From: Frankiales bacterium
GTDB lineage: Bacteria; Actinomycetota; Actinomycetes; S36-B12; CAIYMF01
NCBI GenBank assembly: GCA_016125335.1
Contig: WGLY01000035.1
Span: forward strand, 1 to 64,000
Length of the DNA: 64,000 nt
Direction of reading: 5' to 3'
Shown here: one piece after another, positions 27,238 through 47,422 of the stretch
Numbering within the stretch: the first letter of the stretch is position 1
How the letters are laid out: each line of letters opens with the position of its first letter
Position numbers and translations under genes: made by a program
Notes under the pieces: generated by a model
Database searches by the model: none
The model's input: the letters and a program-made list of their open reading frames with translations, nothing else
What the model was told of the DNA's origin: nothing

Positions 27238-27281
27238 GGTGGCCAGGGGCGGGGTCGAACCGCCGACCTTCCGATTTTCAG
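27238..27281 (-). repeat. attL: displaced 3' fragment of tRNA-Phe
   Basis: Forty-four bases identical to 47347-47390. They cover the anticodon-loop end, variable loop, T arm and acceptor 3' side of tRNA-Phe plus part of the encoded CCA. Identity stops at 27282, where the element sequence begins. It is not a functional tRNA. Confidence 0.95.
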
Positions 27282-27663
27282 AGCCATCAACCGGTGTTTG
27301 CTGATGACGCTTTGGAGCATCGTTGCAGGTCAGAGTCGGTTCATGTGATGCTCCGTGTTCGTGCCTGCGGGTGTCTGCCGGGTCTTTTGTGAGAAATCGT
27401 GAGAGGTCGGTCGCCTCGCCCTCGGACCCTGCTGTATCCCTGGGCCGGCTCCCGACGGTCGCGACCCGGCACGCTCGACTCGGCCGCGGGCAGTGGCACC
27501 GCGCCGAGCTTTAGGCAGATCCACTAAACACGACCAATCTTCGAAAAGTCCGCCGATGTGTGTCCGAACAGGACCGCTTGAGACTCCATCGAATCCGTAG
27601 GGGTCGCATGTTGCGGCGCGGTCTGTCGACCCGTGGCAGCCGTTGCCTGTGGACGAGACGCCG
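27282..27663. other. Left-end non-coding region of the element
   Basis: About 380 bp between attL and the relaxase stop codon without a credible gene. It contains an inverted repeat GGAGCATC (27314-27321) / GATGCTCC (27347-27354) and one arm-type repeat (27386-27406) that recurs at the other end. Base composition is lower in GC around 27520-27600 than in nearby genes. It is probably the integrase/excisionase arm region. Confidence 0.5.
27386..27406 (+). repeat. Arm-type direct repeat, left copy
   Basis: Twenty-one bases matching 47268-47288 at 19 of 21 positions in the same orientation. Each copy holds a doubled GTGAGA core spaced by about 10 bp, as expected for recombinase or excisionase binding sites near att cores. 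It is 105 bp inside attL. Confidence 0.6.
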
Positions 27664-30600
27664 TCAGATGCGGAGGTAGTAGTCGTCGTCTGCGTCCGGC
27701 GTGGGCGAGTCGCCGATGAGGGCGCGTTCGAGCTCGTGGGGGTCCATCTCGAGGCTCTGGAGGTACATGCGCCGCAGGGGGCTGGTGTCGCGTTTCGCCT
27801 TCGGCTCGGGCCGGCCGGGGTGGAGGAGGGCGTCGATCTCGATGATGGCCGCGTCGACCTCCACGTCGATCTCCGGTGTGGAGGCAGGGTTCTGGAGGAG
27901 GTCGGGGGTGTCGACGGCCCAGGGGGTGCCGGCTTGCAGGGAGTCGCGGATGGGCAGCAGCCGCGACGGCTTGGTGGTGGCGTTCTGGTTGTCGCGGAGG
28001 GTCTCGGTGGCGGAGCGTTCGCGGTCCCTGTGAGCGATGATCCCGGCCAGGACGTCCAGGGCGGTGGGGTCGGGTCGTCCGGGGTCGGGGATCTCGTCGT
28101 GACCGTGGTCGGGGGTGTCGAGGGGGACGTAGAGCCGGTTTGAGTCGCTGCCGCGGGTCATCGCGACGTAGAGGGCTTCGCGGCTCATGCCGGGGGTTAC
28201 CAGGACGTGGGCGTGGTCGACGGTGACGCCTTGAGCGCGGTGGATGGTGGTGGCGTAGCCGAGCTCGAGATGGTCGCGGACATACGTCGCCGGCAGCAGG
28301 ACCCGCTCCTCGCCTCTCCCGACCTCGCGACCCGTCTCGTCGCGGACGGCGGTGACGGCGCCGTCGGGGTGGGTGGCGGTGATGGTCCACCTGTCGCCGT
28401 TGCGGACGTGCTGCCCCCCGGTGGTCAGCAGGCGTCGGTCGTTGCGGCGGGTGAGCACGACGTCGCCTACTCCGACCGAGACGCCGTCGGCAGCCGGGAC
28501 CTCGGTGGTGGGGTCGACGCATCCGGCCGCGAGCCGGTCCTGGTGGGCGCGTTCGTTCAGCTGGCTGACGGTGTCGGTGTCCGCCGCGAGCAGCAGGGTC
28601 GACGCGTCCGCCGCCTGGTCGTGGGTCCAGGCGTCGTAGGCGGCGTCGAGGACCTCGTCGCTCGTGCCCGCTGTGATGCGCCGCTGCGACTCGTAGACGT
28701 CGAGGACGGATGGGTCGCCGTGGCGCAGGCGTCGGGTGGCGTGGGCCTCCCAGCGGTGGGTGAACCGCCACAGCGAGGTGAGCTCGCGGGCCTGCGCTGT
28801 GGCGGCGAGGAGGCCGAACGCGCCGCCGGCGTCGACGGCGGACAGCTGGTGGTGGTCCCCGACGAGCAGCACCTTCGCCGCGGCGGCGGTGGCCTGGGTG
28901 GTGAGGTCGTCGAGGGTGAGGGTTCCGGCCAGGGAGGCCTCGTCGACGATGAGGAGCTGCCCGGGTTCCAGTGTCCAGGCCGAAGCGGTGCGCCGGACCT
29001 CGGCGATGCCGCGGGCGACGCGGTTGGCGGCGCTGGTGTCCCCGGTCCGTCGGCAGGCCAGTTCGGAGTCGCGGAGGTGGTCGAGGTGGCGTTGGCGTTC
29101 CTGTCCGCCGGGGCCGGTGGTCTCGTGCAGCCATTTCGCGGTGTTCTCGCACCCGATCCCGAGTCTCGCGGACAGCTCGGCTGCGGCCGTCGCGGAGGGA
29201 GCGAGCCCGACGACCGACCCACGCCCGAACTGCGCCTCCCACGTACTGCGCAACGCGGCGAGGGTGGTGGTCTTGCCGGTGCCGGCTGGGCCGACCAGGA
29301 CGTCGACGCGGCGCCCGGACGTCGCGATCGCGACGACGGCGTTCGCCTGGTCCGCTGCCAGCTTGACTCCGGAGCTGTCGCCCGCGTGCCGCGGCGGAGG
29401 GCCGATCGCGGCGGACGAGATGACGGACGGTTCCACGGGCGACGACGAGGCGGCGGACTGGCCGACGGACGGGTCCGAGCCGACGGACGAGCCGACGAGC
29501 GAGACGGCGGACGGCGCGATGGAGGGGGCGGTGAGGTCGTCGAGGGCGGCGAGGAGGCGGGCTTCGGCGTCGAGGATGGCAGGGTGGGTGTAGAGGTCCT
29601 GGCCGGGGCGGGTGAACACGGACACGCCGTCGGGGGTGAGGAAGGCGGCGGGGACGGTGAACACCTCCGGCGTCTCGAGGCTGATGCACTGGTCGAGCGC
29701 GGCGGCCACGATGCGGTCGTGCAGGGCGTGCCGGTCGGTGGTGGTGGCGCAGCGGATCGGGCGGGTGGCGCGGGCGGCTTCGGCGAGCAGGTTCCACCGG
29801 GTCCAGGTCGAGCGCCGGTCCAGGACGGCGGTCAGGGTGGTCGCGGCGAGGTCGGCGATCACCGGGTCGGGGATCTCGGCGTCGGCCCAGGCGCGGGCGG
29901 ACCGGTGGGGTTCGGTCCTGCGGAGGCCGGGTTTGATCTCGTACTTGTTGAGCAGGCGGACGGCGTCGGCGCCGGTCATGGCTGGTTCCCCGCCGAAGGG
30001 GATGCGTGGGTGGATGTCCCCGGCGTAGATGCCCCGCGGCGGCGGCACCTCGGCGGACCAGAGCCGGAGCCGGTCGGTCTCCGACACTCCCTCGAGCATC
30101 CGCTCGGCCTGGCGTCGGCGGGTGAGGTTGCGGTGCTCGCCGGCCTCGCCGAGCCGGGCCAGGATCGGCAGGAGCGGTCCGGTCACGTGCTCGGGCAGGT
30201 CGGCGATCAGGGCCGCGGCGCGCACCCGCCACCAGGCGACCAGCTCGGCCAGCGCGTGAACGGTCTTGGCCGGTCGGGTGGCGAGGGTGAGCTTCTGTCG
30301 CAGCCGGGTGGTCTCCACCGGTGAGGGTGCGCGCCCGTTCCGGGCGCGGAACTCCGCGACAGCGCCAGTCATGCCGGCGTCGATCCCGCGGGTCCTCAGG
30401 GAGAACTCCTTCAAGACCCAGTCGGGGACGCCGTCGATCTCGAACCCGGGCGAGCGTCGTGGTCCGCGGTCCCGCAGCGACCAACGCACCGGGAGCACCG
30501 TTTCGAGGCGGTCGGCGAGGAGGTTGTCGTAGACCTCGGAGAACGCGACCGCGGCGTGGTGCAGGGCGCGGGAGTCCAGCGACCGCCACTGCCCGTCCAG

Positions 30601-31296
30601 GCCCTGGACCTTGTTGGCGATCACGACGTGGGAGTGCAGGTCGGGGTCGCCGAGGCGGGTGTCCCAGTGGTCGAACACCGCCGCGACCATCCCCTTCGTG
30701 GGGACCTGTGCGCAGGACCGGGCACCGACTCGGGTGAAGATCGCCCGGTCTTCGATCAGGGCGAGGGTGTCGCGGACCGCCGCCCGGTGCGCCTCGAGGA
30801 CGACCGCCTGGGTCGCGGCGTCCGAGAGGCCCCACAGGACGGAGGCGGACTTGCGGGCGGAGAAGGTCAGGTCGAACCCCGCTACCGCACCCCGCGTCCG
30901 CCGTCCGGACTCCGAACGGCGGACGGCGTCGACCGCGGCGGCCCGCTGTCCGTCCTCCAGGTCCGCGGGCAGGGCGGCGACGGCGTCGGCGATCCGCTGG
31001 CTCGAGCTGCGGAACACGGGGTAGGGGCGGCCGAGCGGGGTGTCCGTCGCCGGATCGTGGCCGGCGCCGAACAGGCGGGCCATCGCGTCCTCAGTGACGA
31101 CAGACCCCGCCAGCACGCGGTGCTCTTCGTCGCCCAGGCCCTCGAGGCCGGCGCCCCACCAGGTGCCCGGCGGGTAGCCGGACTCCGCGTAGTACGCCGT
31201 CAACGGCTTGGCTGGATCACGCGGCACGTCGCCGCACGCCGTATGACGAACCAGGTACTGGTAGCCCGCGCCCGCCGACAGGCGCGCTATCGACAT
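27664..31296 (-). CDS. MobF-family relaxase with C-terminal helicase (TrwC/TraA-like)
   Basis: A relaxase-helicase that nicks and unwinds DNA at oriT for conjugative transfer. I choose the ATG at 31296, because MSIARLSAGAGYQYL is the MobF-type N terminus; a GTG at 31341 would add 15 residues. In the 1225-aa numbering from 31341, candidate catalytic tyrosines are Y27/Y29 and Y50/Y51, and the metal histidines H225, H236 and H238 lie in HWDTRLGDPDLHSHVVI. The RecD-like helicase follows: Walker A GPAGTGKTTTL (about 684), LLIVDEASL, GDHHQLSAVD, TIHRAQGVTVDH and YVAMTRG. A Ser/Pro/Val-rich linker joins the domains (about 615-660). All motifs look intact. It is the only transfer gene seen in the element. 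Confidence 0.93.
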   Translation of the reverse strand: MSIARLSAGAGYQYLVRHTACGDVPRDPAKPLTAYYAESGYPPGTWWGAGLEGLGDEEHRVLAGSVVTEDAMARLFGAGHDPATDTPLGRPYPVFRSSSQRIADAVAALPADLEDGQRAAAVDAVRRSESGRRTRGAVAGFDLTFSARKSASVLWGLSDAATQAVVLEAHRAAVRDTLALIEDRAIFTRVGARSCAQVPTKGMVAAVFDHWDTRLGDPDLHSHVVIANKVQGLDGQWRSLDSRALHHAAVAFSEVYDNLLADRLETVLPVRWSLRDRGPRRSPGFEIDGVPDWVLKEFSLRTRGIDAGMTGAVAEFRARNGRAPSPVETTRLRQKLTLATRPAKTVHALAELVAWWRVRAAALIADLPEHVTGPLLPILARLGEAGEHRNLTRRRQAERMLEGVSETDRLRLWSAEVPPPRGIYAGDIHPRIPFGGEPAMTGADAVRLLNKYEIKPGLRRTEPHRSARAWADAEIPDPVIADLAATTLTAVLDRRSTWTRWNLLAEAARATRPIRCATTTDRHALHDRIVAAALDQCISLETPEVFTVPAAFLTPDGVSVFTRPGQDLYTHPAILDAEARLLAALDDLTAPSIAPSAVSLVGSSVGSDPSVGQSAASSSPVEPSVISSAAIGPPPRHAGDSSGVKLAADQANAVVAIATSGRRVDVLVGPAGTGKTTTLAALRSTWEAQFGRGSVVGLAPSATAAAELSARLGIGCENTAKWLHETTGPGGQERQRHLDHLRDSELACRRTGDTSAANRVARGIAEVRRTASAWTLEPGQLLIVDEASLAGTLTLDDLTTQATAAAAKVLLVGDHHQLSAVDAGGAFGLLAATAQARELTSLWRFTHRWEAHATRRLRHGDPSVLDVYESQRRITAGTSDEVLDAAYDAWTHDQAADASTLLLAADTDTVSQLNERAHQDRLAAGCVDPTTEVPAADGVSVGVGDVVLTRRNDRRLLTTGGQHVRNGDRWTITATHPDGAVTAVRDETGREVGRGEERVLLPATYVRDHLELGYATTIHRAQGVTVDHAHVLVTPGMSREALYVAMTRGSDSNRLYVPLDTPDHGHDEIPDPGRPDPTALDVLAGIIAHRDRERSATETLRDNQNATTKPSRLLPIRDSLQAGTPWAVDTPDLLQNPASTPEIDVEVDAAIIEIDALLHPGRPEPKAKRDTSPLRRMYLQSLEMDPHELERALIGDSPTPDADDDYYLRI

Positions 31297-31346
31297 CACG
31301 TCCGCACCACTGACGGTGCTGCCGATCCCTGCTCGAACCACGAGTT

Positions 31347-31360: not shown

Positions 31361-31406
31361 TGCTCGCGAGACGGCCGAGATCGAGTCAGCCACCGACGAA
31401 AGCTCC

Positions 31407-31679
31407 GTGGAGCCAGACGTGTATCCGATCTCGGGTGTTGGGGCGGACTCGCTGAGGGACAGCGGGTGCGTCATGAGTGCGGCGATGGGATGCAGCTCGT
31501 GGGCGGAGCTGACTCGAGTTCCTGTTGATCAGGTGGTGTCGGTCTGCGAGCTCGCTCGTTCACGCCTGTGGGATCTGCCGGTGTTCGAGGACATCGTGAG
31601 TGTCTCGGTGCCGGTGGACGGGTCGACTGTCGTGGTGATGGGTGAAGTGGCCGCGGAGCAGCTACGGTTGGATGCGTAG
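31407..31679 (+). CDS. Hypothetical small protein
   Basis: A possible 90-aa protein (or shorter from ATG 31473) read divergently from the relaxase. The central part, SWAELTRVPVDQVVSVCELARSRLWDLPVF, looks alpha-helical and the end EDIVSVSVPVDGSTVVVMGEV looks like beta strands. I do not recognise a family, and there is no strong ribosome site. It could be a small accessory protein of the relaxase or a chance frame. Confidence 0.35.
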   Translation: MEPDVYPISGVGADSLRDSGCVMSAAMGCSSWAELTRVPVDQVVSVCELARSRLWDLPVFEDIVSVSVPVDGSTVVVMGEVAAEQLRLDA

Positions 31680-31759: not shown

Positions 31760-32602
31760 TCACCTTGGGCGCTGGTCGGTCTCGACGTCGCGGCGGGTGA
31801 GGGCGAGGTAGGTGACGAGGGCGGCGATCGCCAGGCTCCACAGCACGGTGACGAGACCGGTGCCGAGGCCGATGCCGCCACGCGAGGGTGGCAGCGCCAG
31901 CCAGTCCGCGTAGGACGCGCCCAGCGGCCGGGTGATGATGTAGGCGGTCCAGAACGTCGTGATCTCCGCGGCGCCGAAACGGGATTGAGCGACCAGCGGG
32001 ATCGCGAACAGCACCGAGAACACGATCCCGGAAGTGAGGTAGCCCCAGCCGAAGGTGACGGCCGTCATGTCCCCTGCGGCGGTGCCTAGCGCGAAGCTGG
32101 CCAGGACCGTGCCCCAGTAGAACAGCTCGCGGGGCTTGGTGTGGATGCTGTGAATCGACAGGGTGCCCTCGTGGGACCGCCACTGCCAGAGGATGACCGC
32201 AAGCGCAACAGTGAACGCGGTGGTCGACACGAGGTAGGGGATCCCGATCCCTACGTGGAGGACGTCCGCTGCCATCGTGCCGAAGACGCTCACCATCGCG
32301 ACCGCGAGCCAGTACTTCCACGCGACGTAGGTCCGTGAACGCATCTGAATGACGAACGAGACTGCGAACCCGGCGAACCCCAGCGGCAGGGATATCAGCG
32401 GGCCGATGGCGTGGACCAGGAAGTCGGATGCCGTCTCACCCATCCCGGTGGTGAGGATCTTGATGATCCAGAAGAACGCGGTGATCTCCGGGACCTTGCT
32501 GCGCGGGTGCCGCGGCGTGGTGACGGGGCCGCACACGACCGGAATGGGGGCGGTGTCGTCGTGGGTGAACGCATAGGGCACCCGGTCGCGCTCAGGCGTC
32601 AT
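31760..32602 (-). CDS. COG4705-like integral membrane protein
   Basis: A protein of about 280 aa with around eight hydrophobic segments. The opening KVPEITAFFWIIKILTTGMGETASDFLV and the later repeat-like GIPYLVSTTAFTVALAVILWQW and WGTVLASFALGTAAGDMTA are typical of the uncharacterised COG4705 membrane protein family, whose biochemical function is not known. The ATG at 32602 is chosen; a further ATG at 32656 is possible. It lies on the same strand as, and about 100 bp downstream of, the PAP2 phosphatase, which suggests co-transcription in the envelope-related cargo. Confidence 0.8.
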   Translation of the reverse strand: MTPERDRVPYAFTHDDTAPIPVVCGPVTTPRHPRSKVPEITAFFWIIKILTTGMGETASDFLVHAIGPLISLPLGFAGFAVSFVIQMRSRTYVAWKYWLAVAMVSVFGTMAADVLHVGIGIPYLVSTTAFTVALAVILWQWRSHEGTLSIHSIHTKPRELFYWGTVLASFALGTAAGDMTAVTFGWGYLTSGIVFSVLFAIPLVAQSRFGAAEITTFWTAYIITRPLGASYADWLALPPSRGGIGLGTGLVTVLWSLAIAALVTYLALTRRDVETDQRPR

Positions 32603-32702
32603 CGGCAGTCCTGTGGTTGACCCTTGAGTTGGGGCAGGGCGGGCGACGATTCGCAATTCGCGAAGGCGCCTCTTGACCGGTTGGCCGGCGGGTGTCGGCG
32701 CG

Positions 32703-33323
32703 TCATGCGTTGGGGGAGGGGTGCGCGACGACCAGGGGGCGGAAGGACCGGTAGCCGGCCAAGCGAGTCACCAGTGCGGTGAGCAGTCGTCCGACGGCAA
32801 GCCACCCGAGAACGGAGATCATCGCACCGACGAGAAGTCCGGCGACGACGTCGCCGGGGTAGTGGGCGCCCACGTAGACCCGAGCGAATGCCAGCAGCAC
32901 GGCCAGCACCGTTCCTGTGACCGCCAGGCCGCGAGTCCGCGGCCCCGCGTACCGGCCGATGATCCACAGCCCCGCTGCCGCGGCGCCTGCGGTGACGGCG
33001 TGATCGGACGGGAACGAGTAGTCGCTGCTCTTCACGACCAGAACCTCGACGCCGTGCAGGGTGAGATAGGGCCGAGGCCGGGCCACGACCCCACCGATGA
33101 GCTGGTTGATACCGACCGCGACCACGGTGCCGGCTCCGGCCCACAGCGCCGCTGCGACACCACGAGCCGGGTCGTCCTGCGACCGTGCGAGCCACCACCC
33201 AATGGCGACCAGGACCGCGAAGACGGCTACCCCGTAGACGGCGTAGACGGTGAGGACCCCGTGCAGCCACGGAGTGCGCACCGCGAAGTCGTTCACGTCC
33301 AGATACCAGCTGGCGTCCACCAC
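32703..33323 (-). CDS. PAP2-family membrane phosphatase
   Basis: A 206-aa polytopic protein with the three-part PAP2 signature: ARPRPY after the second helix (KxxxxxxRP-like), SFPSDHAVT (PSGH-like with Asp) and ARVYVGAHYPGDVVAG (SRxxxxxHxxxD-like). Such enzymes dephosphorylate phosphatidate or undecaprenyl pyrophosphate at the membrane. Together with a second PAP2 protein at 42413-43348 it may support lipid-carrier recycling. It is the upstream gene of the COG4705-like protein. Confidence 0.85.
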   Translation of the reverse strand: MVDASWYLDVNDFAVRTPWLHGVLTVYAVYGVAVFAVLVAIGWWLARSQDDPARGVAAALWAGAGTVVAVGINQLIGGVVARPRPYLTLHGVEVLVVKSSDYSFPSDHAVTAGAAAAGLWIIGRYAGPRTRGLAVTGTVLAVLLAFARVYVGAHYPGDVVAGLLVGAMISVLGWLAVGRLLTALVTRLAGYRSFRPLVVAHPSPNA

Positions 33324-34662: not shown

Positions 34663-35946
34663 CTACTGATCGACAGGGGGCAGCAGAAGGGTGAACTGAG
34701 TGGTGGGCTCCCGTTGGCTGAGCCGAAGTCGGCCACCACCGTCTTCGGCGAGACCGCGCGCCAGTGCTAGCCCAATGCCGCTGCCGCCGCCGTGGGAGAC
34801 GCCGCGGGCAAAGACGTCCAGATCGAAGGGGATGCCGTGTCCGTCGTCACGGACGTCGATGGCGATGGCCCCGCCTACAGGACGGGCTGTCATAGTCACG
34901 GCTCCCGCACCATGTCGAAGCGCATTGTCGAGGAGGACGTCGAGGATCTGGCGCAGCGCCGATTCGGTGAACCGAACGGGTGGACAGCCTTCCGTCAACC
35001 GGAGGCGCAATGGACGACCAGCGGCAGCGAGCGGTGGACCCCAGCGCAAGACGGCGGCGTCAAGCACGGCCGTCACCTCGACAGCCACGTTGGGGGGGCT
35101 GTTTCCACGTGTCAGATCGATGAGTTCCGCGATCGTCAGCTCCAACTGGTCCGCAGCCCTGATGGCAGTCCGAGCTGCCGTGGTCAGATCGGCGGAAGGG
35201 TCGGACAGCGCGGATTCCAGCGAGGCGCGAAGTCCACTGAGCGGGGTTCGCAGCTGGTGCGAGGCGTTGGCGGCGATCTGCTGCTCGCGGCGCACGAGGT
35301 CACCGATCCGCTCCGCTGTGGCGTTGAGCGAGTTGCCGGCGTCGTCGATCTCCGGCATGCCGGTGGGTGTGGTTCGAACATCGAAGTCGCCGTCACCGAG
35401 CCGGTGAGCGGTCAACGCGAACTCCTCCAGGGGACGGTTCACCCGTCGGGCCAGCACCCGTGCGGCGAGGATCGCGATGCCGATCGCCAGCGCCGCGGCA
35501 AGGACCATCGCAGCCCAGGTGAGCGCGGTGCGCCGCCATACCTCGGCGATCGGCGCCGCGGTGCGGACTGCGCCGACGACCTGCTCGGCTGATGACACCG
35601 GCACCGAAACGATGATCCAGCCGCCGGACAAGTCCTGGCCCACACCACCGCCGAGCGCCGTCGCCGTAGCAGGGTCGGCTCGATCCGGTCCGGAGCCGCT
35701 GATGCGCAGCCCACGCGGGTCGTAGAGGCCGAGCTGCTCCCCGGCACCTGGATCGGGCAATTCGGCCGGGTCGCGACCGGCGAAGTCCGGGCCGATGCCG
35801 ATCGCCGTTCTTAGCGCCGTGCGCTCGAGGGCGACCTGCGCGTCACCGAGGTAGATGCGTTGGACGGCGATGCCCAGCGGCAGTGCGAACAGGGCAACCG
35901 CAAGGACCGCGCTGGCCAGTGCAACCCGCACGATGCGTCGTCTCAT
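34663..35946 (-). CDS. Sensor histidine kinase
   Basis: A 427-aa membrane kinase: TM1 about 7-29, extracytoplasmic sensor domain about 30-140, TM2 about 142-166, HAMP to about 220, then the H-box ANASHQLRTPLSGLR with phospho-accepting H230, N-box LLDNALRHGAG, and G-boxes DDGHGIPFD and GGGSGIGLALARGLAEDGGG. It is divergent from the lipoprotein-ABC operon at 36064, with the most likely partner regulator at 40819-41544 on the far side of that operon. AGGGAG precedes the ATG. It probably senses envelope stress or the transporter substrate (inference). Confidence 0.92.
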   Translation of the reverse strand: MRRRIVRVALASAVLAVALFALPLGIAVQRIYLGDAQVALERTALRTAIGIGPDFAGRDPAELPDPGAGEQLGLYDPRGLRISGSGPDRADPATATALGGGVGQDLSGGWIIVSVPVSSAEQVVGAVRTAAPIAEVWRRTALTWAAMVLAAALAIGIAILAARVLARRVNRPLEEFALTAHRLGDGDFDVRTTPTGMPEIDDAGNSLNATAERIGDLVRREQQIAANASHQLRTPLSGLRASLESALSDPSADLTTAARTAIRAADQLELTIAELIDLTRGNSPPNVAVEVTAVLDAAVLRWGPPLAAAGRPLRLRLTEGCPPVRFTESALRQILDVLLDNALRHGAGAVTMTARPVGGAIAIDVRDDGHGIPFDLDVFARGVSHGGGSGIGLALARGLAEDGGGRLRLSQREPTTQFTLLLPPVDQ

Positions 35947-36063
35947 GCAGGCTCCCTGAACGGCGACGCAGCGTTAACCGTCCGCTTGCCATGCGCGATC
36001 CGAGCGTTAGCCAGCACGTCCCTAGCGTGACAGACGCACACCCTCACAACCTCGGAGGACTCC

Positions 36064-38158: not shown

Positions 38159-40815
38159 CCGGTACCTGGCTGCGCGGACTCCTGCGACGACGCCGCGGAG
38201 CCCTGATCGCGACCGCGTCCGGGATCGCGGTCGCGGTTGCCCTGTTGGCCTCATTGGGGGCGTTCCTCGCGGCCTCCAAGGCCACCATGACCGCCCGCGC
38301 AGCGTCAGGCGTCGTCGTCGACTGGCAGGTGCAGGCCGCCAGCGGTACAGACCCGGCCGCTGTCCTTGCCGCGACCCGTCGCGCCGACGGAGTGACGGCG
38401 GCGCTCCCGGTCCAGTTCGCCACGACAGACGGCTTCACCGCCACCACGGGCGGCACCCAGCAGAACACCGGTGTCGGTGTCGTTCTCGGGCTCCCCGCGG
38501 ACTACCGCACCGTGTTTCCAGGTGAGATCCGCACGCTGTCGGGGTCCCCGGACGGCGTCCTGGTCGCGCAGCAGACGGCGTCGAACCTGCACGTGGCCCC
38601 TGGCGACAAGGTCACGGTCGCGCGTGCCGGCCTCCCCTCGGTGACTGTGACGGTCGCGGGCGTGGTCGATCTCCCCTACGCGGACTCCCTGTTCCAGAAG
38701 GTTGGTGCCCCCCCGCAGTCCCAGCCCGCCGCGCCACCGGACAACGTGATGCTCATGCCCGCGTCCACGTTCGCGTCGACGATGGCCCCGCTGTCCGCGA
38801 CGCGACCGGACCTCGTGACGACTCAGGTCCATGTCGCACACACCCACGACCTGCCGCCCGACCCGGCCGAGGCCTACATCGCGGTGACGGCGGCCGCGCA
38901 CAACCTCGAGGCCACGCTCGCGGGTTCCGGACTGGTGGGCGATAACCTCGCCGCATCACTGGACGGGGCGCGCAAGGACTCCCTGTACTCCCAGGTCCTG
39001 TTCCTCTTCCTGGGACTCCCCGGCGCGATCCTGGCCGGGATCCTGACCGCCGCGATCGCGGGTGCCGGAGCCGTGCGCCGGCGACGCGAGCAGGCGTTGC
39101 TGCGTGCCCGCGGAATGAGCGTGCGCCAGGTCGTGCGCCTCGCGGCGGTCGAGGCGCTGCTCGTCGGCGTGGTCGGTGGCATCGTGGGGCTTGGTGTGGC
39201 CGCGGCGATCGGCCGGTTTGCCTTCGGCGCCTCGGGATTCGGGGCCTCCACCACGAGTGCCTTGAGTTGGACTGTCGGCGCGTTCGTCGTGGGTCTCCTC
39301 ATCGCCGTGGTCGCCGTCCTGGTCCCGACGGTGCGGGACTTCCGCGAGAGCACCGTGACGGGTGCCCGGGCGCGGGTGCACCGGGAACGGGCACCTCGCT
39401 GGATGCGCTTCGGCCTCGACATCATCATGCTCGCGGGCGCCGCCGTGATGTTCGCGATCACCAGCCAGGCCGGCTACAGCCTCGTGCTCGCCCCGGAAGG
39501 GGTCGCCACGATCTCGGTCAGCTACTGGGCCTTCCTCGGCCCGGCTCTGCTGTGGATCGGCGTCGCCCTGCTGGCCTGGCGCATCGCCTACGTCGTCCTG
39601 GGGCGAGGTCGACCGGTCGTCGCCCGCGCGATCCGGCCGCTGACGGGCAACCTGTCCTCGACGACCGCCGCCGGGCTCTCCCGGCAGCGAACCATCGTGG
39701 CGCGCGCGGTCGTACTGGTGGCTCTCGCGGTCTCCTTCGCCGCCTCGACGGCCACCTTCAACGCCACCTACAAGGCGCAGGCGGAGGTCGACGCCCGGCT
39801 TACCAACGGCGCCGACATCGCGGTGACCCAGTCCCCAGGCTCCAACGTAGGGCCGGACGGGGCGGCCGCCATCGCGTCGGTCCCGGGTGTGATCAGCGTG
39901 GAACCGCTGCAGCACCGCTTCGCCTACGTCGGTGCCGACCTGCAAGACCTCTACGGCGTCCGACCGGCCACGATCGGTGCCGCGACATCACTGCAGGACG
40001 CGTACTTCCAGGGCGGAACAGCTGCGCAGCTCATCGGTCGCCTCGCCGCGCAGCCCGACGCGATTCTGGTCAGCGACGAAACGGTCAAGGACTTCCAGCT
40101 CTCGCCGGGCGACCTCATCCGGCTCCGCCTGCAGGACGGGCAGACCAAGAAGCTCATCACCGTGCCGTTCCACTATGCCGGCATCGCCAAGGAGTTCCCG
40201 ACCGCACCGCACGACAGCTTCTTCATCGCCAACGCCGACTACATCGCCAAGGCCACCGGAAGCAACGCCGTCGGAGCGTTCCTCGTCGACACCGGGGGTC
40301 AGAACACCGCCGCAATCGCGACAGCTCTTCAGGACAAGCTCGGCGCTGCGGCACATGTGACCGACATCGGATCGACCCGCTCGGCGATCGGGTCCAGCCT
40401 GACCTCGGTCGACCTCGCCGGTCTCACACGCGTCGAGCTCGGGTTCGCGCTCGTACTGGCCGCAGCCGCCGGCGGTCTCGTCCTGGCGCTCGGGCTCGCC
40501 GAACGCCGTCGCACCTTCGCGATCGCCAGCGTGCTGGGTGCGACGGGGCGGCAGCTGCGGGGGCTCGTTCTCAGCGAGGCGGTGATCGTGGTTGTCGGCG
40601 GGATCGCAGCGGGAGCGGTGAGCGGATGGCTGCTCTCCCAGATGCTCGTGACCGTGCTCACCGGTGTCTTCGACCCGCCGCCGGAGAAGCTGTCGGTGCC
40701 GTGGCCGTATCTGGCGACGACGGTTCTCGTGGCGGCTCTTGCCATCGGTGCTGCGGCCCTCATGGCTGCTCAGCGGTCGCGCCGCCCGGCGGTGGAAGCG
40801 CTGCGAGGACTCTGA
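38155..40815 (+). CDS. Large FtsX-family ABC permease
   Basis: An 886-aa permease with the double MacB/LolE-like arrangement: TM1 (about 17-41), a large extracytoplasmic domain (about 42-275), a cluster of membrane segments (about 280-500 with the coupling loop RRRREQALLRARGMSVRQVVRLAAVEALLVG), a second external domain (about 530-740), and a last three-helix FtsX block ending ALMAAQRSRRPAVEALRGL. Both halves show the FtsX-typical ERRRTFAIASVLGATGRQLRG signature. Such permeases move lipids, peptides or lipoproteins or act as mechanotransmission devices. It forms one complex with the two upstream ATPases and the lipoprotein by operon logic. Confidence 0.92.
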   Translation: MTGTWLRGLLRRRRGALIATASGIAVAVALLASLGAFLAASKATMTARAASGVVVDWQVQAASGTDPAAVLAATRRADGVTAALPVQFATTDGFTATTGGTQQNTGVGVVLGLPADYRTVFPGEIRTLSGSPDGVLVAQQTASNLHVAPGDKVTVARAGLPSVTVTVAGVVDLPYADSLFQKVGAPPQSQPAAPPDNVMLMPASTFASTMAPLSATRPDLVTTQVHVAHTHDLPPDPAEAYIAVTAAAHNLEATLAGSGLVGDNLAASLDGARKDSLYSQVLFLFLGLPGAILAGILTAAIAGAGAVRRRREQALLRARGMSVRQVVRLAAVEALLVGVVGGIVGLGVAAAIGRFAFGASGFGASTTSALSWTVGAFVVGLLIAVVAVLVPTVRDFRESTVTGARARVHRERAPRWMRFGLDIIMLAGAAVMFAITSQAGYSLVLAPEGVATISVSYWAFLGPALLWIGVALLAWRIAYVVLGRGRPVVARAIRPLTGNLSSTTAAGLSRQRTIVARAVVLVALAVSFAASTATFNATYKAQAEVDARLTNGADIAVTQSPGSNVGPDGAAAIASVPGVISVEPLQHRFAYVGADLQDLYGVRPATIGAATSLQDAYFQGGTAAQLIGRLAAQPDAILVSDETVKDFQLSPGDLIRLRLQDGQTKKLITVPFHYAGIAKEFPTAPHDSFFIANADYIAKATGSNAVGAFLVDTGGQNTAAIATALQDKLGAAAHVTDIGSTRSAIGSSLTSVDLAGLTRVELGFALVLAAAAGGLVLALGLAERRRTFAIASVLGATGRQLRGLVLSEAVIVVVGGIAAGAVSGWLLSQMLVTVLTGVFDPPPEKLSVPWPYLATTVLVAALAIGAAALMAAQRSRRPAVEALRGL

Positions 40816-40818
40816 TCC

Positions 40819-41544
40819 TCAGGTGTCCGTTGGAGGATCGAGGCGGTAGCCGTGCCCGCGCAGCGTTGTCACTGCGGGGAGCGCGGCTATCGCTTCGGCA
40901 CCTGCGAGGGCTGCCGCGTCGGAGAGCTTGCGCCGCAGTGCGACCATGTGAACGTCGAGGGTCTTGGTCGAGCCGAACCAGTGCTCGTCCCACACGTCGC
41001 TCATCAGCGTCTCGCGGCTCACCGCGACGCCCGCGTCGGTCGCGAGTCGCAGCAGCAGGTCAAGCTCACGCGCACGGAGCCCCACCTCGACCTGGGCCAC
41101 GTGAACCCGACGCGAGGCGACGTCGATGACCAGGGAGCCCAGTCGGAGTTCCGCGGGCTGAGCGGGTACAGACAACGCAGTGTTGGACCGCCGCAAGTGG
41201 GCACGAATGCGGGCCAGCACCTCGCTGACCTTGAACGGCTTCGTGAGGTAGTCGTCCGCGCCGGCGTCCAACCCGGAGATCACGTCCATCTCGTCCTGGC
41301 GTGCCGTCAGGATCACGATCACCGCAGTCGGCTGGCGGCTCCTGAGCTCGCGGCACACGTCGATGCCATCGCGATCGGGCAGTCCAAGATCGAGGAGTAC
41401 CAGGTCGGCCCCGGCTTCGCGGGCCTCGATCAGGCCGCTGCCGCCGGAGCGATGCCAACGGACCTGGTACCCGCTCGCGCCCAGGGCAGATTCGAGCGCG
41501 GCACCGATCGTGTCGTCGTCCTCGATCAGCAGGATGCGGGCCAC
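40819..41544 (-). CDS. OmpR-family response regulator
   Basis: A 241-aa regulator with a receiver domain (acidic IEDDD at 8-12, phospho-acceptor D52 in LLDLGLPDRDG, LTARQDEMD, conserved Lys in YLTKPF) and an OmpR-like winged helix (LRARELDLLLRLATDAGVAVSRETL and LRGHGYRLD). Its 3' end meets the permease gene with a 3-bp gap. It and the kinase at 34663-35946 flank the ABC operon, so they are the likely sensor-regulator pair of that operon. Kinase and regulator being split by 4.9 kb is unusual. Confidence 0.92.
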   Translation of the reverse strand: MARILLIEDDDTIGAALESALGASGYQVRWHRSGGSGLIEAREAGADLVLLDLGLPDRDGIDVCRELRSRQPTAVIVILTARQDEMDVISGLDAGADDYLTKPFKVSEVLARIRAHLRRSNTALSVPAQPAELRLGSLVIDVASRRVHVAQVEVGLRARELDLLLRLATDAGVAVSRETLMSDVWDEHWFGSTKTLDVHMVALRRKLSDAAALAGAEAIAALPAVTTLRGHGYRLDPPTDT

Positions 41545-41761
41545 GAGTCCAGCCTACGAGCCTCGAGGACCCCAGCCACGATGACGCCGGGTGCGGCGGA
41601 CACCGGATCGCGACTCGCAGCGTGCAGCTGCGCGCGAAGGCTGCGCGGCACGACAGTCGCTCGCGATGAAGGTTTCCCCCAGGATCGGGAGCACCGTGCT
41701 TGGGTTCGACGGGAACCGGGCACACGTGAGGACGCGGCAACGCGACGGCTGTGTGAACATG

Positions 41762-41799
41762 CCGGACGGGACGTCGCCTCACAGCGGCGTCCCGTCCGG
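41762..41799 (-). terminator. Hairpin after secreted protein gene
   Basis: Perfect 12-bp arms (41762-41773 and 41788-41799) with a 14-nt loop lie 8 bp past the stop codon of the leftward gene 41807-42202. The arrangement indicates a terminator. Confidence 0.75.
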
Positions 41800-41806
41800 G
41801 TGCGAC

Positions 41807-42202
41807 CTACTTCTCGCTGGCGCCGCCCTCGTGGTTAATGTCGACGCCGGGGGCGTCGGCGTGGCCTCCGTCGTTCCCGTCAGACGGGCCGGTCTCGGAC
41901 GCCGTCTCGGTGCCGGCGGCGGACTCCGTCGTCGACTCGGTGCCGGCCGCGGTCTCGGCGGAAGAACCGGTGTCCGGGGTCGTCTGGTCGCCCTGCTGGA
42001 GTGTGTCGGTGTCCTTCGCCGAGTCGGCGGTCTCGGCGTCCGCCGCAGTCGAGCTGACCGCGGCAACGGCCGGCGCGGCGACCGGCGGCTTCGTCGAGGT
42101 GGCCGGGGCGGCCTGGGCGACGGAGCCCAGGCCGAGACCCACGCTGGCGAGCAGGGCGGCGGCGCCGACAGTTCCGGCGACGCCCTTCTTGGTGAGCTTC
42201 AT
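41807..42202 (-). CDS. Secreted low-complexity Ala/Thr/Ser/Glu-rich protein
   Basis: A 131-aa protein with a clear Sec signal peptide (MKLTKKGVAGTVGAAALL, cleavage near AQAAP about residue 32), followed by a low-complexity tail with repeated acidic and hydroxyl residues (TAADAETADSAKDTD, TESTTESAAGTETASETG) and a C-terminal Asp/His/Gly-rich end (GGHADAPGVDINHEGGA). No family is recognised. AGGAG precedes the ATG by 5 nt and a hairpin follows the stop, so it is a true gene. It could be an extracellular metal-binding or cell-wall-associated peptide; this is speculation. Confidence 0.8.
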   Translation of the reverse strand: MKLTKKGVAGTVGAAALLASVGLGLGSVAQAAPATSTKPPVAAPAVAAVSSTAADAETADSAKDTDTLQQGDQTTPDTGSSAETAAGTESTTESAAGTETASETGPSDGNDGGHADAPGVDINHEGGASEK

Positions 42203-42412
42203 GACGACTCCTGGGGTGAGGTGATGGTCCGCGAACGGGGGTGTCGAGGACTGGAGACACGCTGTCCTGCGGCGGCTGTGGTGGGCATGAGAGCGCATGA
42301 GAAGCCCCAATTCCCCGTCATGGTTCGGGAGTCCCGCAGCCACGACGCACGCGAGGCGCCCGTGACGGCGGATCCTCAGCGTCACCACAGGAGCAGTGCG
42401 CAGGCTGGGGTC

Positions 42413-43348
42413 ATGACGTCCATGTCGCGACGCGCGACCGTGTCGATCTCGGCTGTCGCTCTCGTCGTGCTCTACGCGCTCATCACCTTCGTCCCCCGCC
42501 TCGCGTCGGTGGATCGTTCGGCGTTCGCCGGCCGGTTGGACAGCGGAACCAGGTTGATCGTCATGGAGCGCCTTGCCTTGTCGACGATCACGATCTTGAC
42601 CCTGTCCGCGGGTCTACTCGTGGTCTGCGGGCGAACGTATCGACGGCAAGGGCTTGGGCCCGCGTTGCGCATGGCGACCGCCGTGGTCGGTGCCGTCGTG
42701 TCCGCCGAGCTGCTCAAGCACTTCCTGCCGACCGCATCAGGCACCTCGCCGCTGGGGCTGGTCGTTGCCGGCGGGTCGTTCCCGAGCGGGCACGCCACCA
42801 TCGCCACCGGGTTCGCTCTCGCCCTGGCATCCACGTTGGGCCCGAAGCTCGCGCGCCGGTGGTGGGGGCCCCTCGTCGCCTGGGTGAGCCTCGTCGCCGC
42901 AGGCACTGTGGCAGCGGGGTGGCATCGCCCCAGCGACGCCGTCGGCGGTGTCCTGCTCGCGGTGATCTGGCACGCGGCACTGGTACGCGGGCGCGAGGCC
43001 GACGAGGCAACTGCCGCTGCGGCTACACGGTCGCGAGTGGGTGTTCCGATTGCCGCCTTGATCTCAGGGTGGGGCTGGTGGGCGGCGATGGCCACGGCGG
43101 TCATCGCTGGCGCCCTCGCTCCTCAGGCACGATCAGGTCACGAGCTCGGGGAGGCGGCCAGCCCGCTCTACCTTGTCGGCCTGGCCGCGGTGCTGGCCGC
43201 CACGGGGGCCTTGATACTCCTGGGTCCGTGGCGAGAACCGGCACTGCGGACGGGATCGTCGCGAGGCGCACGAGTGAGCGTCGAGCGAGTGATGCAGCCG
43301 CATACCGCAACTCAGCGTCGTCTCAGGCGGGATGAGAGACAGTGGTGA
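42413..43348 (+). CDS. PAP2-family membrane phosphatase with extra C-terminal helices
   Basis: A 311-aa protein with PAP2 motifs: ELLKHFLPTASG (KxxxxxxRP-like, degraded RP), SFPSGHATIATGFALAL (PSGH) and AAGWHRPSDAVGGVLLAV (histidine-Asp motif). Additional hydrophobic segments follow (about 205-225 and 250-275), longer than the usual PAP2 domain. The K/RP motif being partly altered leaves the catalytic status open. Its 3' end overlaps the following response regulator frame by 17 bp, indicating linked expression. It is the second lipid phosphatase of the element. Confidence 0.82.
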   Translation: MTSMSRRATVSISAVALVVLYALITFVPRLASVDRSAFAGRLDSGTRLIVMERLALSTITILTLSAGLLVVCGRTYRRQGLGPALRMATAVVGAVVSAELLKHFLPTASGTSPLGLVVAGGSFPSGHATIATGFALALASTLGPKLARRWWGPLVAWVSLVAAGTVAAGWHRPSDAVGGVLLAVIWHAALVRGREADEATAAAATRSRVGVPIAALISGWGWWAAMATAVIAGALAPQARSGHELGEAASPLYLVGLAAVLAATGALILLGPWREPALRTGSSRGARVSVERVMQPHTATQRRLRRDERQW

Positions 43349-44027
43349 GGTGAAGGTCCTGCTGGTCGACGACGAACCCAGGCTCGTCGACGCCGTGCAG
43401 CGCGGTCTGGCGGCCGAGGGCTTCCAAGTCGAGGTGGCCAGGGACGGCGAGCAGGGACTCTGGATGGCCTGTGAAGGCAGCTACGACGTCATCGTCCTAG
43501 ACATCATGCTGCCCAAGCTTAACGGCTACCGGATTTGTCAGAGACTCCGCGACGAGGAGATCTGGACGCCCGTCCTCATGCTCACGGCCAAGGACGGCGA
43601 GCATGACGAAGCGGACGCGTTCGACCTGGGAGCCGATGACTACCTGACGAAGCCGTTCTCCTTCGTTGTGCTGGTGGCGCGCCTGCGCGCGCTGCTACGT
43701 CGTGGTGCACCTGAGCGACCGGTCGTCCTGCAGGCCGGGGATCTCTCTCTGGACCCGGCGCGTCGCCACGTGCTTCGAGCAGACCAAGAGATTGCGTTGA
43801 CGCCCCGAGAGTTCGGGCTCCTGCACTTCCTTCTCCGACGCAAGGGCGACGTCGTCACCAAGAGCGAAATCCTCGCTGCCGTATGGGACGAGAACTACGA
43901 GGGAGATTCCAACGTCGTCGAGGTCTACATCGGCTACCTGCGCCGCAAGATCGACGCGCCCTTCGACCGGCAGGCCATCGAGACGGTGCGCGGCGTGGGC
44001 TACAGGCTCTCAGAAAGCGGAGGGTAG
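43332..44027 (+). CDS. OmpR-family response regulator (second)
   Basis: A 231-aa regulator: receiver domain with DDEPRLVDAV, phospho-acceptor D57 in VIVLDIMLPKLNG, LMLTAKDGEHDEAD and YLTKPFSFVVL; then an OmpR/PhoB winged helix (LTPREFGLLHFLLRRKGDVVTKSEIL, VYIGYLRRKID, TVRGVGYRL). ATG 43332 overlaps the PAP2 gene by 17 bp; a GTG at 43350 directly after the PAP2 stop is an equally good start and gives the usual VKVLLVDDE beginning. Its probable kinase is encoded convergently at 44088-45473. Confidence 0.92.
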   Translation: MRDSGEVKVLLVDDEPRLVDAVQRGLAAEGFQVEVARDGEQGLWMACEGSYDVIVLDIMLPKLNGYRICQRLRDEEIWTPVLMLTAKDGEHDEADAFDLGADDYLTKPFSFVVLVARLRALLRRGAPERPVVLQAGDLSLDPARRHVLRADQEIALTPREFGLLHFLLRRKGDVVTKSEILAAVWDENYEGDSNVVEVYIGYLRRKIDAPFDRQAIETVRGVGYRLSESGG

Positions 44028-44087
44028 TCGGGACAGTAGGCCGCGGTGGCCGCACCGTTGCAGTTGGCTGCACCGACCACGACGACG

Positions 44088-45473
44088 TCATGCTTCCTGA
44101 GCCGGGAGGCGGACGACGAACCGTGCGCCGCTGGTCGAATCCTCCACAGCTACCGTTCCGCCGTGGGCGTGCGCCACCTCGAAGACAATCGCCAGACCCA
44201 GCCCTGCGCCACCGGAGAGGCGGTCCCGCGCCGGATCCAGGCGCACGAACCGGTCAAAGACGCGGTCTCGGTCCCCGACCGGTACCCCCGGCCCGTCGTC
44301 CTGCACGACCAAGACAGCCCACGCGCCCTCGATTCCGACCGAGAGAGCGACCGATGACGTCGCGTAGCGGGCGGCGTTGTCGCACAGGTTGCGCACCAGG
44401 CGTTCGAGCTGCTGACGATCGCCGGATACACGCGCGGGCGCTACGTCGACGGAGACGTCGATGTCTCCCAGCCGCGCAAGGCGATCTGCCTCCATGATCA
44501 TGAGGTCGTCGAGATCGACATCATGATGATCCTGGCGGCTGTCGATCTCGTCCGAGCGCGCGAGCAGCAGCAGGTCGTCCACCAGGGTACTGAGCCGATC
44601 GGTCTCGGCCAGAACCGCAGGGGCTGTATCGGCCCATGGCTGCGACCCGGGATGCTCCAGACCCACCTCGACGGTCGCTCGAATGGCCGCCAGGGGGCTG
44701 CGCAACTCGTGGCTGGCATCAGCGACGAACCGTCGCTGCGTGGCCTGGGAGTCCTGCAACCGATCCAGCATGCTGTTCATTGTGAGCGCGAGCCGACCTA
44801 CCTCATCGTCGGCAGCCGGCACCGGGACTCGCATGTCAAGGTCCGTCGCGCCGATCGCAGCGACCCGCCGACGGATCTCCTCGACTGGGCGGAGGGTTTT
44901 GCCCACGACGAAGTACACCGACGCGGCCACGACCAGCAGGACGACGGGGAATCCGAAGGCAAGAAGGCGTTCGACCGTGGTGACGCTGGCAACCACCGTG
45001 CCAAGCGATTGCGCAACGACCACGATCGCATCGCCGGTTGGCGTGTGAACTCCGCGCGACACGACGACGAACAACTCCTGGTCGGCCACCGGGACGCTCT
45101 GGGTGGAGACTTCGACAGTTCCAGGTGCCGGGCGGGCCGAGGTCAGTGCGGGCTCGCCGTCTATCTCGGGACTGGAGATCAACACGCTCCCTCGGGAGTC
45201 GAGAACCTGGACGACGGAGCGTTCGCTGAGGTTGCCGACGACGATCGCATCGCGGGCGGCTCCCTCCGCCGCCACCGACGTCGCCACGTCACTGGCACGC
45301 TGCTGCGCCGAGTCCCGGACCGTCTGGCTCAGCGACGCACGCAGGATCCACACCATGCCGATTGCCCCGATCGTCAGGGCTGTTGCGACGACGAGAGTCG
45401 CGGCGAGGGTCGAGCGCAGCCTCGCCCCGGGTGGGGCTACCACGCCAGCCCCGCGCCGATCGTGCTGCACCAA
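44088..45473 (-). CDS. Sensor histidine kinase (second)
   Basis: A 461-aa membrane kinase. TM1 about 22-45, an external sensor domain of about 120 residues, TM2 about 171-192, HAMP ([14 protein letters not shown]), H-box [15 protein letters not shown] with H255, N-box [11 protein letters not shown], and G-boxes [18 protein letters not shown] and [19 protein letters not shown]. It pairs with the OmpR-type regulator at 43332-44027, but the two genes run tail to tail with a 60-bp gap, so expression is not operon-coupled. Sensed signal unknown. Confidence 0.92.
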
Positions 45474-45727
45474 TCACGGAACATGGCCGAACGGTACGCA
45501 ACGGTGGCTGTGAAATGGCTGAGTGGCGTCCGCGCCGCCTTGCCGGTCGGGCCTCTCGCGAGCTCGTTCCTCGACTGCAGTCGCACGCCACCGCCAACCG
45601 CTTGGGGAGCTGGAGTCCAGTCTCTCGGCGTCGCTATCCGCGATCGCGTCGACCGTCGTGTCGCGTCGCACTTCTGCACACCTCCCGGTGACGCCATCGC
45701 AGCAGGCGGTGGAACCCAACGGACGGG

Positions 45728-45937
45728 ATGAAGATGGACCACGAGGAAATGGCTGGGTTGCCGGCGCTGCTTGACGTCCCGGAGGCCGCCCGCGTGCTGG
45801 GCATCGGCCGATCATTGGCCTACGAGCTCGTGCGCCGCGGTGACTGGCCCACGGAGGTACTGAGGATCGGGAAACTCATCAAGATCCCAAGTGCGCCGCT
45901 CCTCCGGCTGCTGAGGGGGGACCGGCCACAACAGTGA
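45728..45937 (+). CDS. AlpA/excisionase-like helix-turn-helix protein
   Basis: A 69-aa protein with a MerR/AlpA-type winged helix: LLDVPEAARVLGIGRSLAYELVRRGDWPTEVLRIGKLIKIPSAPLLRLL matches the excisionase DNA-binding fold (HTH_17-like). It lies 161 bp upstream of the integrase in the same direction, the usual place for a recombination directionality factor. It probably directs excision with the integrase. Several ATG codons (45728, 45734, 45749) are possible starts. Confidence 0.88.
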   Translation: MKMDHEEMAGLPALLDVPEAARVLGIGRSLAYELVRRGDWPTEVLRIGKLIKIPSAPLLRLLRGDRPQQ

Positions 45938-46098: not shown

Positions 46099-47274
46099 GT
46101 GAGCCGGACCGCCAAGGACTCCGTCCGCAAGGTGACGCTGCGCGATGGCAGGGTCCGATGGCGGTGCGTCGTCGACGCCGGCATCGACGTCGACGGTCAC
46201 CGTCGACAGCTCACGCGCACGTTCGACACGATGAAGGAGGCGCGCAACTTCGTCGCGTCGACGCGAGTACTAATCAGCACCGGCGCCTATGTCGGCAAAG
46301 TGGACATGACCCTCGCCGAGTACGCGCAACTGTGGCTGACGTCGCGCAAGCATGCGGTCCGGCCCAAGACGCTCGAGGGCTACTCGGTCGCCCTGGATCG
46401 GGCCCTGCGCAAGTTCGGGCACCGGCGGCTCGATCAAGTGTCGAAGGCCGATCTCGTCGCGCTGGTCGCTGACATGCGCAGCGAACCGCGTCCGGCCGCG
46501 AGCCGAACGGTGAACCTCACCCTCGGTGTGCTGCGCCAGGTCTTCAAGGCGGCTGTCCGCGAGGGCCTTGTCGTGCGTAGTCCTGCGGCGATGGTGGACC
46601 TGCTCCCGCAGCCGGCGCAGGAGATGCAGGCGTGGACGCCCGAGGAGGCGGCCACGTTCTTGCGCGCTGTTGCCGATCACCCGTGGGCGGGCGCATACGC
46701 GCTCAGCCTGTCGGGTCTTCGCCGTGGAGAGGTGCTGGGCATCCGCTGGGACGACGTGCAGCTCAGCGGCGACCTCCCGCACGTGCTCGTGCGCAGGTCG
46801 CGCGTCCAGCTCGGTCGAGATGGCGGCGGCGTGGTGGAGGGCGAGCCCAAGTCCGCACGATCGAGACGCTTGGTACCGCTGGCCCCGTTCGCGGTGGAGG
46901 CCCTCGTCGCGACGAATCGCCAGCAGGCCGCCGATCGCGCGAGGCTGGGGACGGACTACCAAGACCTGGGCTTCGTATGTGCCGACGCGTCGGGGCGACC
47001 ACCTCGGCCGGAGACCTACTCCAGCGTCTTCCACCGATTGGCGAGCGGGGCCGGCCTTCGTCGCGTTCGTCTGCACGACCTCCGCCACACGAGCGTGACT
47101 CTGATGCTCAACGCCGGGATTCCCGTGCACGTCGTGGCGAGCATCCATGGGCACGACCCCATCATCACGCAGCGGATCTACGCCCATACGCGGCACGACG
47201 ATGCGGTCGCGGCTATGAACACCCTGGACCGCATCCTGCGTCGGGACGACGGGGCGCCGCAGATGTCTTTGTGA
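46099..47274 (+). CDS. int: Tyrosine recombinase (integrase)
   Basis: A 391-aa site-specific integrase: an N-terminal arm-binding region (about 8-60), SAM-like core-binding domain (about 66-160) and catalytic domain with R208 (SGLRRGEVLGI), K251 (EPKSARSRR), H326-x2-R329 (LHDLRHTSV), H352 (IHGHDP) and nucleophile Y361 (RIYAHT). All catalytic residues are in place. The GTG start has AGGAG upstream. The gene ends 72 bp from the att core of tRNA-Phe and will insert the element there. An arm-type repeat overlaps its 3' end. Confidence 0.95.
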   Translation: MSRTAKDSVRKVTLRDGRVRWRCVVDAGIDVDGHRRQLTRTFDTMKEARNFVASTRVLISTGAYVGKVDMTLAEYAQLWLTSRKHAVRPKTLEGYSVALDRALRKFGHRRLDQVSKADLVALVADMRSEPRPAASRTVNLTLGVLRQVFKAAVREGLVVRSPAAMVDLLPQPAQEMQAWTPEEAATFLRAVADHPWAGAYALSLSGLRRGEVLGIRWDDVQLSGDLPHVLVRRSRVQLGRDGGGVVEGEPKSARSRRLVPLAPFAVEALVATNRQQAADRARLGTDYQDLGFVCADASGRPPRPETYSSVFHRLASGAGLRRVRLHDLRHTSVTLMLNAGIPVHVVASIHGHDPIITQRIYAHTRHDDAVAAMNTLDRILRRDDGAPQMSL

Positions 47275-47288: not shown

Positions 47289-47313
47289 CCCGGGTCGATG
47301 ACCCGGGCCTCTC
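47283..47313. terminator. Hairpin between integrase and tRNA-Phe
   Basis: Arms 47283-47296 and 47300-47313 are perfect 14-bp complements with a 3-nt loop. It can terminate the integrase transcript and the leftward tRNA-Phe transcript. It replaces the ancestral hairpin (27185-27212) separated from the tRNA by insertion. Confidence 0.85.
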
Positions 47314-47345
47314 GACGTTCATCAGGCCTCTGACCTGCAGTGATG

Positions 47346-47422
47346 TGGTGGCCAGGGGCGGGGTCGAACCGCCGACCTTCCGATTTTCAGTCGGACGCTC
47401 GTACCAACTGAGCTACCTGGCC
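47346..47422 (-). tRNA. tRNA-Phe (GAA)
   Basis: A 74-nt cloverleaf plus encoded CCA (47346-47348). Acceptor arm GGCCAGG pairs with CCTGGCC; D-arm region GCTCAGTTGGTA; anticodon stem-loop TCCGA-CTGAAAA-TCGGA with anticodon GAA; T arm GGTTCGACC. It is complete and functional in appearance, with its 3' 44 bases supplied by the element's att copy. Confidence 0.97.
47347..47390 (-). repeat. attR: 3' part of tRNA-Phe
   Basis: Forty-four bases identical to 27238-27281. Identity ends at 47390 inside the anticodon stem-loop, which marks the likely extent of the recombination core. The intact tRNA is restored on this side. Confidence 0.95.

Follow-up and report, generated by a model that had tools for sequence, protein, structure and literature searches.

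A probable MobF-type integrative and mobilizable element in the tRNA-Phe gene of a Frankiales bacterium

The window is a 64,000-nt stretch of contig WGLY01000035.1 from a Frankiales bacterium (genome G000), an actinobacterium related to Nanopelagicales; the order is known mainly for freshwater genomes that are small and streamlined. The host is apparently environmental and non-pathogenic. Within the window a 20.1-kb unit lies between two copies of a repeat at a tRNA-Phe gene. This raises the question of what class of mobile element the unit belongs to, and by what means it could leave the chromosome and reach another cell. The answer given here is that the unit is probably an integrative and mobilizable element (IME) that its own tyrosine integrase placed in the 3' end of tRNA-Phe, a gene of which no other copy was detected, and that is mobilised in trans. 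Statements about the whole of G000 are based on family and sequence searches.

Repeat core, target tRNA and borders

An exact 44-bp direct repeat is present at 27238-27281 and 47347-47390, with a spacing of 20,109 bp, precisely where a preceding sequence-only reading had placed it. The repeat finder returned no other exact 44-bp pair, and the remaining repeats in the region are imperfect and typical for sequence at 67-78% G+C. The right copy (attR, 47347..47390, minus strand) is the 3' part of the target gene, an intact tRNA-Phe(GAA) on the minus strand (47346..47422). ARAGORN and Rfam both identify this gene, with a start at 47346 or 47349 and an end at 47422. The left copy (attL, 27238..27281, minus strand) is a 3' fragment of tRNA-Phe and represents the original chromosomal 3' end; neither program called a tRNA there. 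Joining the two flanks in silico gave one intact tRNA-Phe with the tRNA finder, while joining the element ends (attP) gave none. The tRNA calls and the rejoined flanks thus agree with the earlier description of an intact gene beside the integrase and a mere 3' fragment at the left end.

No second full tRNA-Phe was found by a tRNA search of G000, and restoration of the target gene therefore matters. The integrated gene was called with an encoded CCA end (47346), whereas after rejoining the terminal CC is followed by T, so the present 3' end of tRNA-Phe is supplied by the element. The borders had been described as known to the base. This holds for the circle length of 20,109 bp, which alone is fixed, but not for the crossover point, which can lie anywhere within the 44 identical bases. 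The G+C content is 69.5% in the element, 73.6% to the left (10.0-27.2 kb) and 75.3% to the right.

Alignment with a relative carrying an empty tRNA-Phe site had been proposed as a check, but none of the relatives examined has such a site with both element flanks. Five genomes have an integrase-free tRNA-Phe (G001, G004, G005, G006 and G007), but the left flank is unrecognisable there. The neighbourhood of the left-flank alcohol dehydrogenase was matched in G009 only, and G009 has another element at the same site.

Integrase, arm sites and related elements

The integrase gene (46099..47274, plus strand) was identified by domain match, and R208, H326, R329, H352 and Y361 were read from its sequence. 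It is preceded by a small gene for a helix-turn-helix protein (45728..45937, plus strand; PF12728, 1.8e-7), which had been named an AlpA-like excisionase. The gene is confirmed and its name corrected: HTH_17 scored 31.8 against a cut-off of 27 and AlpA stayed below its cut-off (13.7 against 21), so that HTH_17/Xis-like is more exact. Homologues with 66% identity are found beside integrases on G009 C11 and G000 C32.

Two candidate integrase arm sites were identified. The motif GACCTGC is found on the plus strand at 47332..47338, -15 from the core, and inverted on the minus strand at 27325..27332, at position 88 from the core start. All seven junctions examined on the integrase side (the window, G002 C303, G002 C281, G009, G010, G003 and G191) have it starting exactly 15 bases ahead of the core; these junctions are partly kin by descent, and no probability is attached to the count. 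In the distal junctions its distance from the core start is 85-95 bases, in four of four examined, among them G009 C14, G002 C281 and G003 C16. It is absent within 250 bp of the integrase-free tRNA-Phe at four sites (G001, G004, G005 and G007). On G002 C303 the motif is present, yet the contig has no integrase match.

The integrase family adjoins tRNA-Phe in five genomes, one of which, G191, belongs to another family of the class (57% identity). At the same core in genus-mates, the integrase sequence is 55% identical in G009, 86% in G003 and 71% over the remaining part in G010, and G002 keeps a fragment. Plasmid and phage collections gave distant integrases only (<60%). Named relatives of the integrase were found at five loci only, all on MAG contigs; the labels of related contigs are Candidatus Nanopelagicales or unclassified Actinomycetota. 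One MAG contig labelled Marmoricola has an integrase with 73% identity and stops just short of the expected att core. Upstream of this integrase, ORFs look on inspection like multicopper-oxidase, hemerythrin and Rieske proteins.

The element in G009 is a different one with an identical 44-bp core; as in the window, it is bordered by this tRNA on one side and by the alcohol dehydrogenase neighbourhood on the other. The alcohol dehydrogenase (70% identical protein) lies about 3.5 kb further from the distal core than in the window. Between MobF and the distal core (G009 C14, 1-6490) the cargo looks by inspection like restriction-modification, with cytosine methyltransferase, HNH-type and restriction-like ORFs. 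Most copies at tRNA-Phe are decayed. The integrase gene of G010 (C103, 12756-13322) has lost its catalytic part by an internal deletion of 498 bp, the relaxase and integrase of the G003 element are both truncated, and in G002 only att and a piece of the integrase gene, lying ahead of a second core, are left. A protein of 2,200 amino acids resembling RHS/YD-repeat proteins is encoded inside the decayed G003 element (C16, 6664-13266). Of these copies, only the one in the window is intact as well as assembled from one end to the other.

The elements of the genus-mates (G009, G003, G010 and G002) thus resemble the one in G000 in having the same core, the same -15 arm motif and a related integrase (55-86% where measured). 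They differ from it in their cargo, in the clade of their relaxase (G009 and G003) and in being mostly decayed or incompletely assembled. Because different relaxase clades are found at the same tRNA-Phe site, one integrase/att chassis carries different relaxases. Judged from these sequences, relaxase and cargo are exchanged on this fixed chassis across the genus.

Relaxase, candidate oriT and cargo

The earlier placement of a tyrosine integrase at one end and a MobF relaxase at the other is supported by domains in both cases. The relaxase gene (27664..31341, minus strand) encodes a relaxase-helicase of the TrwC plus RecD-like type, with a probable true start near 31296. It matches PF08751 (6e-81), AAA_30 and the NCBIfam MobF equivalog NF041492 (227.8 bits, cut-off 100), and its N-terminal part aligns to TraI/TrwC structures. 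The features of a MOBF relaxase are present, namely the TrwC domain, the three-histidine motif, N-terminal tyrosines and a C-terminal helicase; the tyrosines and histidines were read in the sequence by eye. In the phylogenetic tree the relaxase falls in one group (support 98/98) with the relaxases of the T4SS loci on G000 C1 and G009 C63, with G038 and with G000 C32/G009 C81. The relaxases of the tRNA-Phe elements in G009 and G003 form a separate clade together with G000 C25 and C32 (support 100/99). The identity between the relaxase of the element and that of the C1 locus is about 60%, and 65% over the relaxase domain.

Upstream of the relaxase gene a candidate oriT was identified (31375..31434, minus strand), in which a 9-bp inverted repeat (31375-31383 and 31426-31434) flanks CGTCTGGCTCC (31409-31419). 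The same 11-mer is found upstream of the relaxase of the C1 T4SS locus, also inside an inverted repeat. When the stretch from the element was shuffled with dinucleotides preserved, an 11-base match to C1 arose in 11% of shuffles, a match at a similar offset in 0.9% and one within an inverted repeat in 0.1%; 9-bp inverted repeats alone arose in 14%. For the C1 and C63 relaxases, inverted repeats that are longer and differ in sequence surround a related core at an equal distance (75-91 bases). It is mainly the one 11-base match and the 9-bp inverted repeat that are suggestive of an oriT in this stretch. A comparison with more distant MobF plasmids gave no common inverted repeat. The motif TCTGG reappears close to the start in another clade of relaxases, though not in all, and was therefore not used as proof of oriT.

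The C1 locus (about 161-178 kb) is T4SS-like and contains DUF6112, a TrbL/VirB6-like gene, TraG/VirD4, a transglycosylase, an AbiEii/DUF6088 pair and a MobF relaxase. Its TraG/VirD4 is the one coupling protein found in G000 by a genome-wide family search, and a resembling locus is carried on G009 C63. Genes of TadE/T2SSF type lie near the C1 locus, which is possibly an ICE or a plasmid. VirB4 as defined by PF19044 had no match in 11 genomes; there was only a weak AAA_10/TrwB-like match, and the C1 locus may therefore be incomplete as a helper. Besides the relaxase of the element, G000 has at least four MobF matches (C1, C25 and C32 twice), and C32 has a compact MobF-Xis-Int block. The copies on C32 (32.9-37.7 kb and 52.7-57.0 kb) and C25 (77.6-79.9 kb) include two beside integrases, and one of the C32 copies is interrupted by three stops.

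Between the relaxase and the excisionase-like gene lies the cargo. It begins with a DUF347 membrane protein (31760..32656, minus strand; PF03988, 2.9e-47), 83% identical in amino acid sequence to its counterpart in G006, and an undecaprenyl-diphosphatase-like PAP2 phosphatase (32703..33323, minus strand; PF01569, with NCBIfam similarity below cut-off). The stretch of 1.3 kb that follows (33400-34660) has no convincing gene, and a piece of 110 bp within it matches G006 at 74%. A degenerate OFeT gene was considered for this ORF-poor part (33.4-34.6 kb) and ruled out, as no similarity was found. Next are sensor histidine kinase 1 (34663..35946, minus strand; domain match), a lipoprotein-like secreted protein (36064..36738, plus strand), the N-terminus of which was read by eye, a LolD/MacB-like ABC ATPase (36699..37406, plus strand), a second ABC ATPase (37403..38158, plus strand), both identified by family match, and an FtsX-type ABC permease (38155..40815, plus strand; PF02687). 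The remaining cargo genes encode response regulator 1 (40819..41544, minus strand; domain match), a small secreted-type protein without Pfam match that has a homologue in G006 (41807..42388, minus strand), a second PAP2 phosphatase (42413..43348, plus strand), response regulator 2 (43332..44027, plus strand) and sensor histidine kinase 2 (44088..45473, minus strand), the last two by domain match.

In G006 a cluster on contigs C115 and C30 is collinear with 31775-45528 at 83-87% nucleotide identity. Compared with the element, this cluster has an added beta-propeller gene and an added iron-permease-like gene, and the PAP2 genes, including the second one, are missing. No integrase or relaxase was found beside it, and the tRNA-Phe region of G006 (two contigs joined via a 127-base overlap) has no integrase match. 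A protein 95% identical to the permease is found in G006 alone, so that two of 166 genomes of the order carry it, and the cargo cluster is therefore accessory in the genus. A native locus was sought through the genes next to the G006 cluster, but they share no informative neighbourhood with the other genomes; the island may have captured the cluster or delivered it. The combination of two two-component systems, a LolD/MacB-like ABC exporter, PAP2 phosphatases and DUF347 hints, weakly, at a probable role in sensing and resisting envelope stress, for instance from antimicrobial peptides.

Class of the element and comparison with known systems

The element combines site-specific integration, with direct repeats and a restored target gene, with its own integrase and Xis-like gene and its own relaxase. 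Among the element ORFs scanned there was no match to coupling-protein, VirB4/T4SS, TraB/FtsK or Rep families and none to phage structural, packaging or lysis families, and hence no mating-pair formation system was recognised, as is expected of an IME. A self-transmissible ICE would have a coupling protein and VirB4/T4SS together with the relaxase within the element; only the relaxase is found. The TraB/FtsK translocase and Rep of an AICE and the structural and packaging genes of a prophage were likewise not recognised. The sequence-only reading had called the element complete, and this is correct for an IME but does not extend to a self-transmissible ICE or an AICE, since genes for a coupling protein, a T4SS, TraB or replication were not recognised in it. 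That reading named neither the transfer class nor the arm site shared at att, the exchange of relaxases and cargo among relatives, the T4SS locus on C1 or the cargo counterpart in G006. Small element ORFs without family match could conceal unrecognised transfer genes.

Other readings differ in how much of the evidence they account for. The unit may be an immobile genomic island, with the repeat and genes left as relics after excision was lost, and the evident decay of its relatives (the G010 integrase minus its 498-bp catalytic part, the truncations in G003, the fragment and att in G002) points in this direction. Here, however, the core copies match exactly, arm sites are in place, the integrase, Xis-like and relaxase frames are open and the catalytic residues of the integrase are kept, which makes the island unlikely. 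More doubtful is a decayed ICE, in which a former T4SS of its own has gone and relaxase, Xis and integrase remain on either side of acquired cargo. The relaxase is indeed closest to those of T4SS-linked loci (its relaxase domain is 65% identical to that of C1), but nothing in the element was recognised as a remnant of a T4SS. The different relaxase clade of the sister elements at tRNA-Phe and the compact block on C32 are also easier to reconcile with an IME architecture and exchange of relaxases than with a T4SS lost in situ.

A prophage or phage satellite using tRNA-Phe is very improbable. Actinophage integrases, for instance the one of Rhodococcus phage REQ2, are about 36% identical to the integrase of the element, but the ORFs scanned include no structural, packaging or lysis family and there is a MobF relaxase. 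Hardly any credence is given to an actinomycete AICE, which a TraB/FtsK protein would transfer in double-stranded form, in spite of the similar size, tRNA target and Xis/Int pair (PMC3218068). The element has no FtsK/TraB match, the single FtsK_SpoIIIE match of G000 being on another contig, and in place of RepSA, RepAM or Prim-Pol, which gave no match, it has the MobF relaxase.

As an IME, the element would be excised by the integrase and the HTH_17 protein as a circle of 20,109 bp, with attP formed by the 47390 side joined to the 27282 side. The relaxase would then nick the candidate oriT just upstream of its own gene, and the single strand would exit through the channel of another conjugative element. 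The most likely helper would be an element like the C1 T4SS locus of G000, with its roughly 60% identical relaxase and the candidate oriT core in common. Tentatively, and with somewhat more doubt than trust, the data can be read as a compact, undescribed actinobacterial IME family of this lineage, in which one tRNA-Phe integrase/att chassis swaps relaxase clades and cargo freely and several co-resident MobF elements use a single T4SS through a common oriT core. Since its ends are defined, its attP and arm sites predicted, and candidates for both oriT and helper available within one genome, the element allows direct tests of excision and helper dependence.

Canonical IMEs and iMOB elements (Guedon et al. 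2017, PMC5704250; Ares-Arroyo et al. 2024, PMC11389934) are chromosomal and have a tyrosine integrase, a tRNA 3' end as target, their own relaxase and no recognised mating-pair formation genes, as does the element described here. Canonical MobF IMEs were not known in 2017, when the review of Guedon et al. (PMC5704250) counted none with MobF and a single canonical IME in Actinobacteria (ATE-1, MobV), and actinobacterial IMEs are still few in the literature consulted. The AICEs and T4SS-type ICEs of Actinobacteria (PMC3218068) share the tyrosine integrase and the tRNA 3' end, and the T4SS-type ICEs were defined there with MOBF (TrwC) relaxases; the element differs in having no recognised TraB/FtsK, Rep, coupling protein or VirB4. 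The MOBF IMEs of Mesorhizobium (PMC8627217) are similar in having MOBF relaxases at tRNA genes, tRNA-Phe included, but they belong to a different phylum and most have a Ti-like traACD locus with accessory genes, in contrast to the lone MobF gene found here. In Streptomyces (PMC9513070) IMEs likewise have a relaxase and an integrase without a T4SS in an actinobacterium, although the IMEs and ICEs there measure 86-100 kb and the present element is 20 kb and bounded by att repeats. Given the IME anatomy, the MOBF IMEs delineated in Mesorhizobium (PMC8627217) and the large Streptomyces IMEs (PMC9513070), the type of element is already known.
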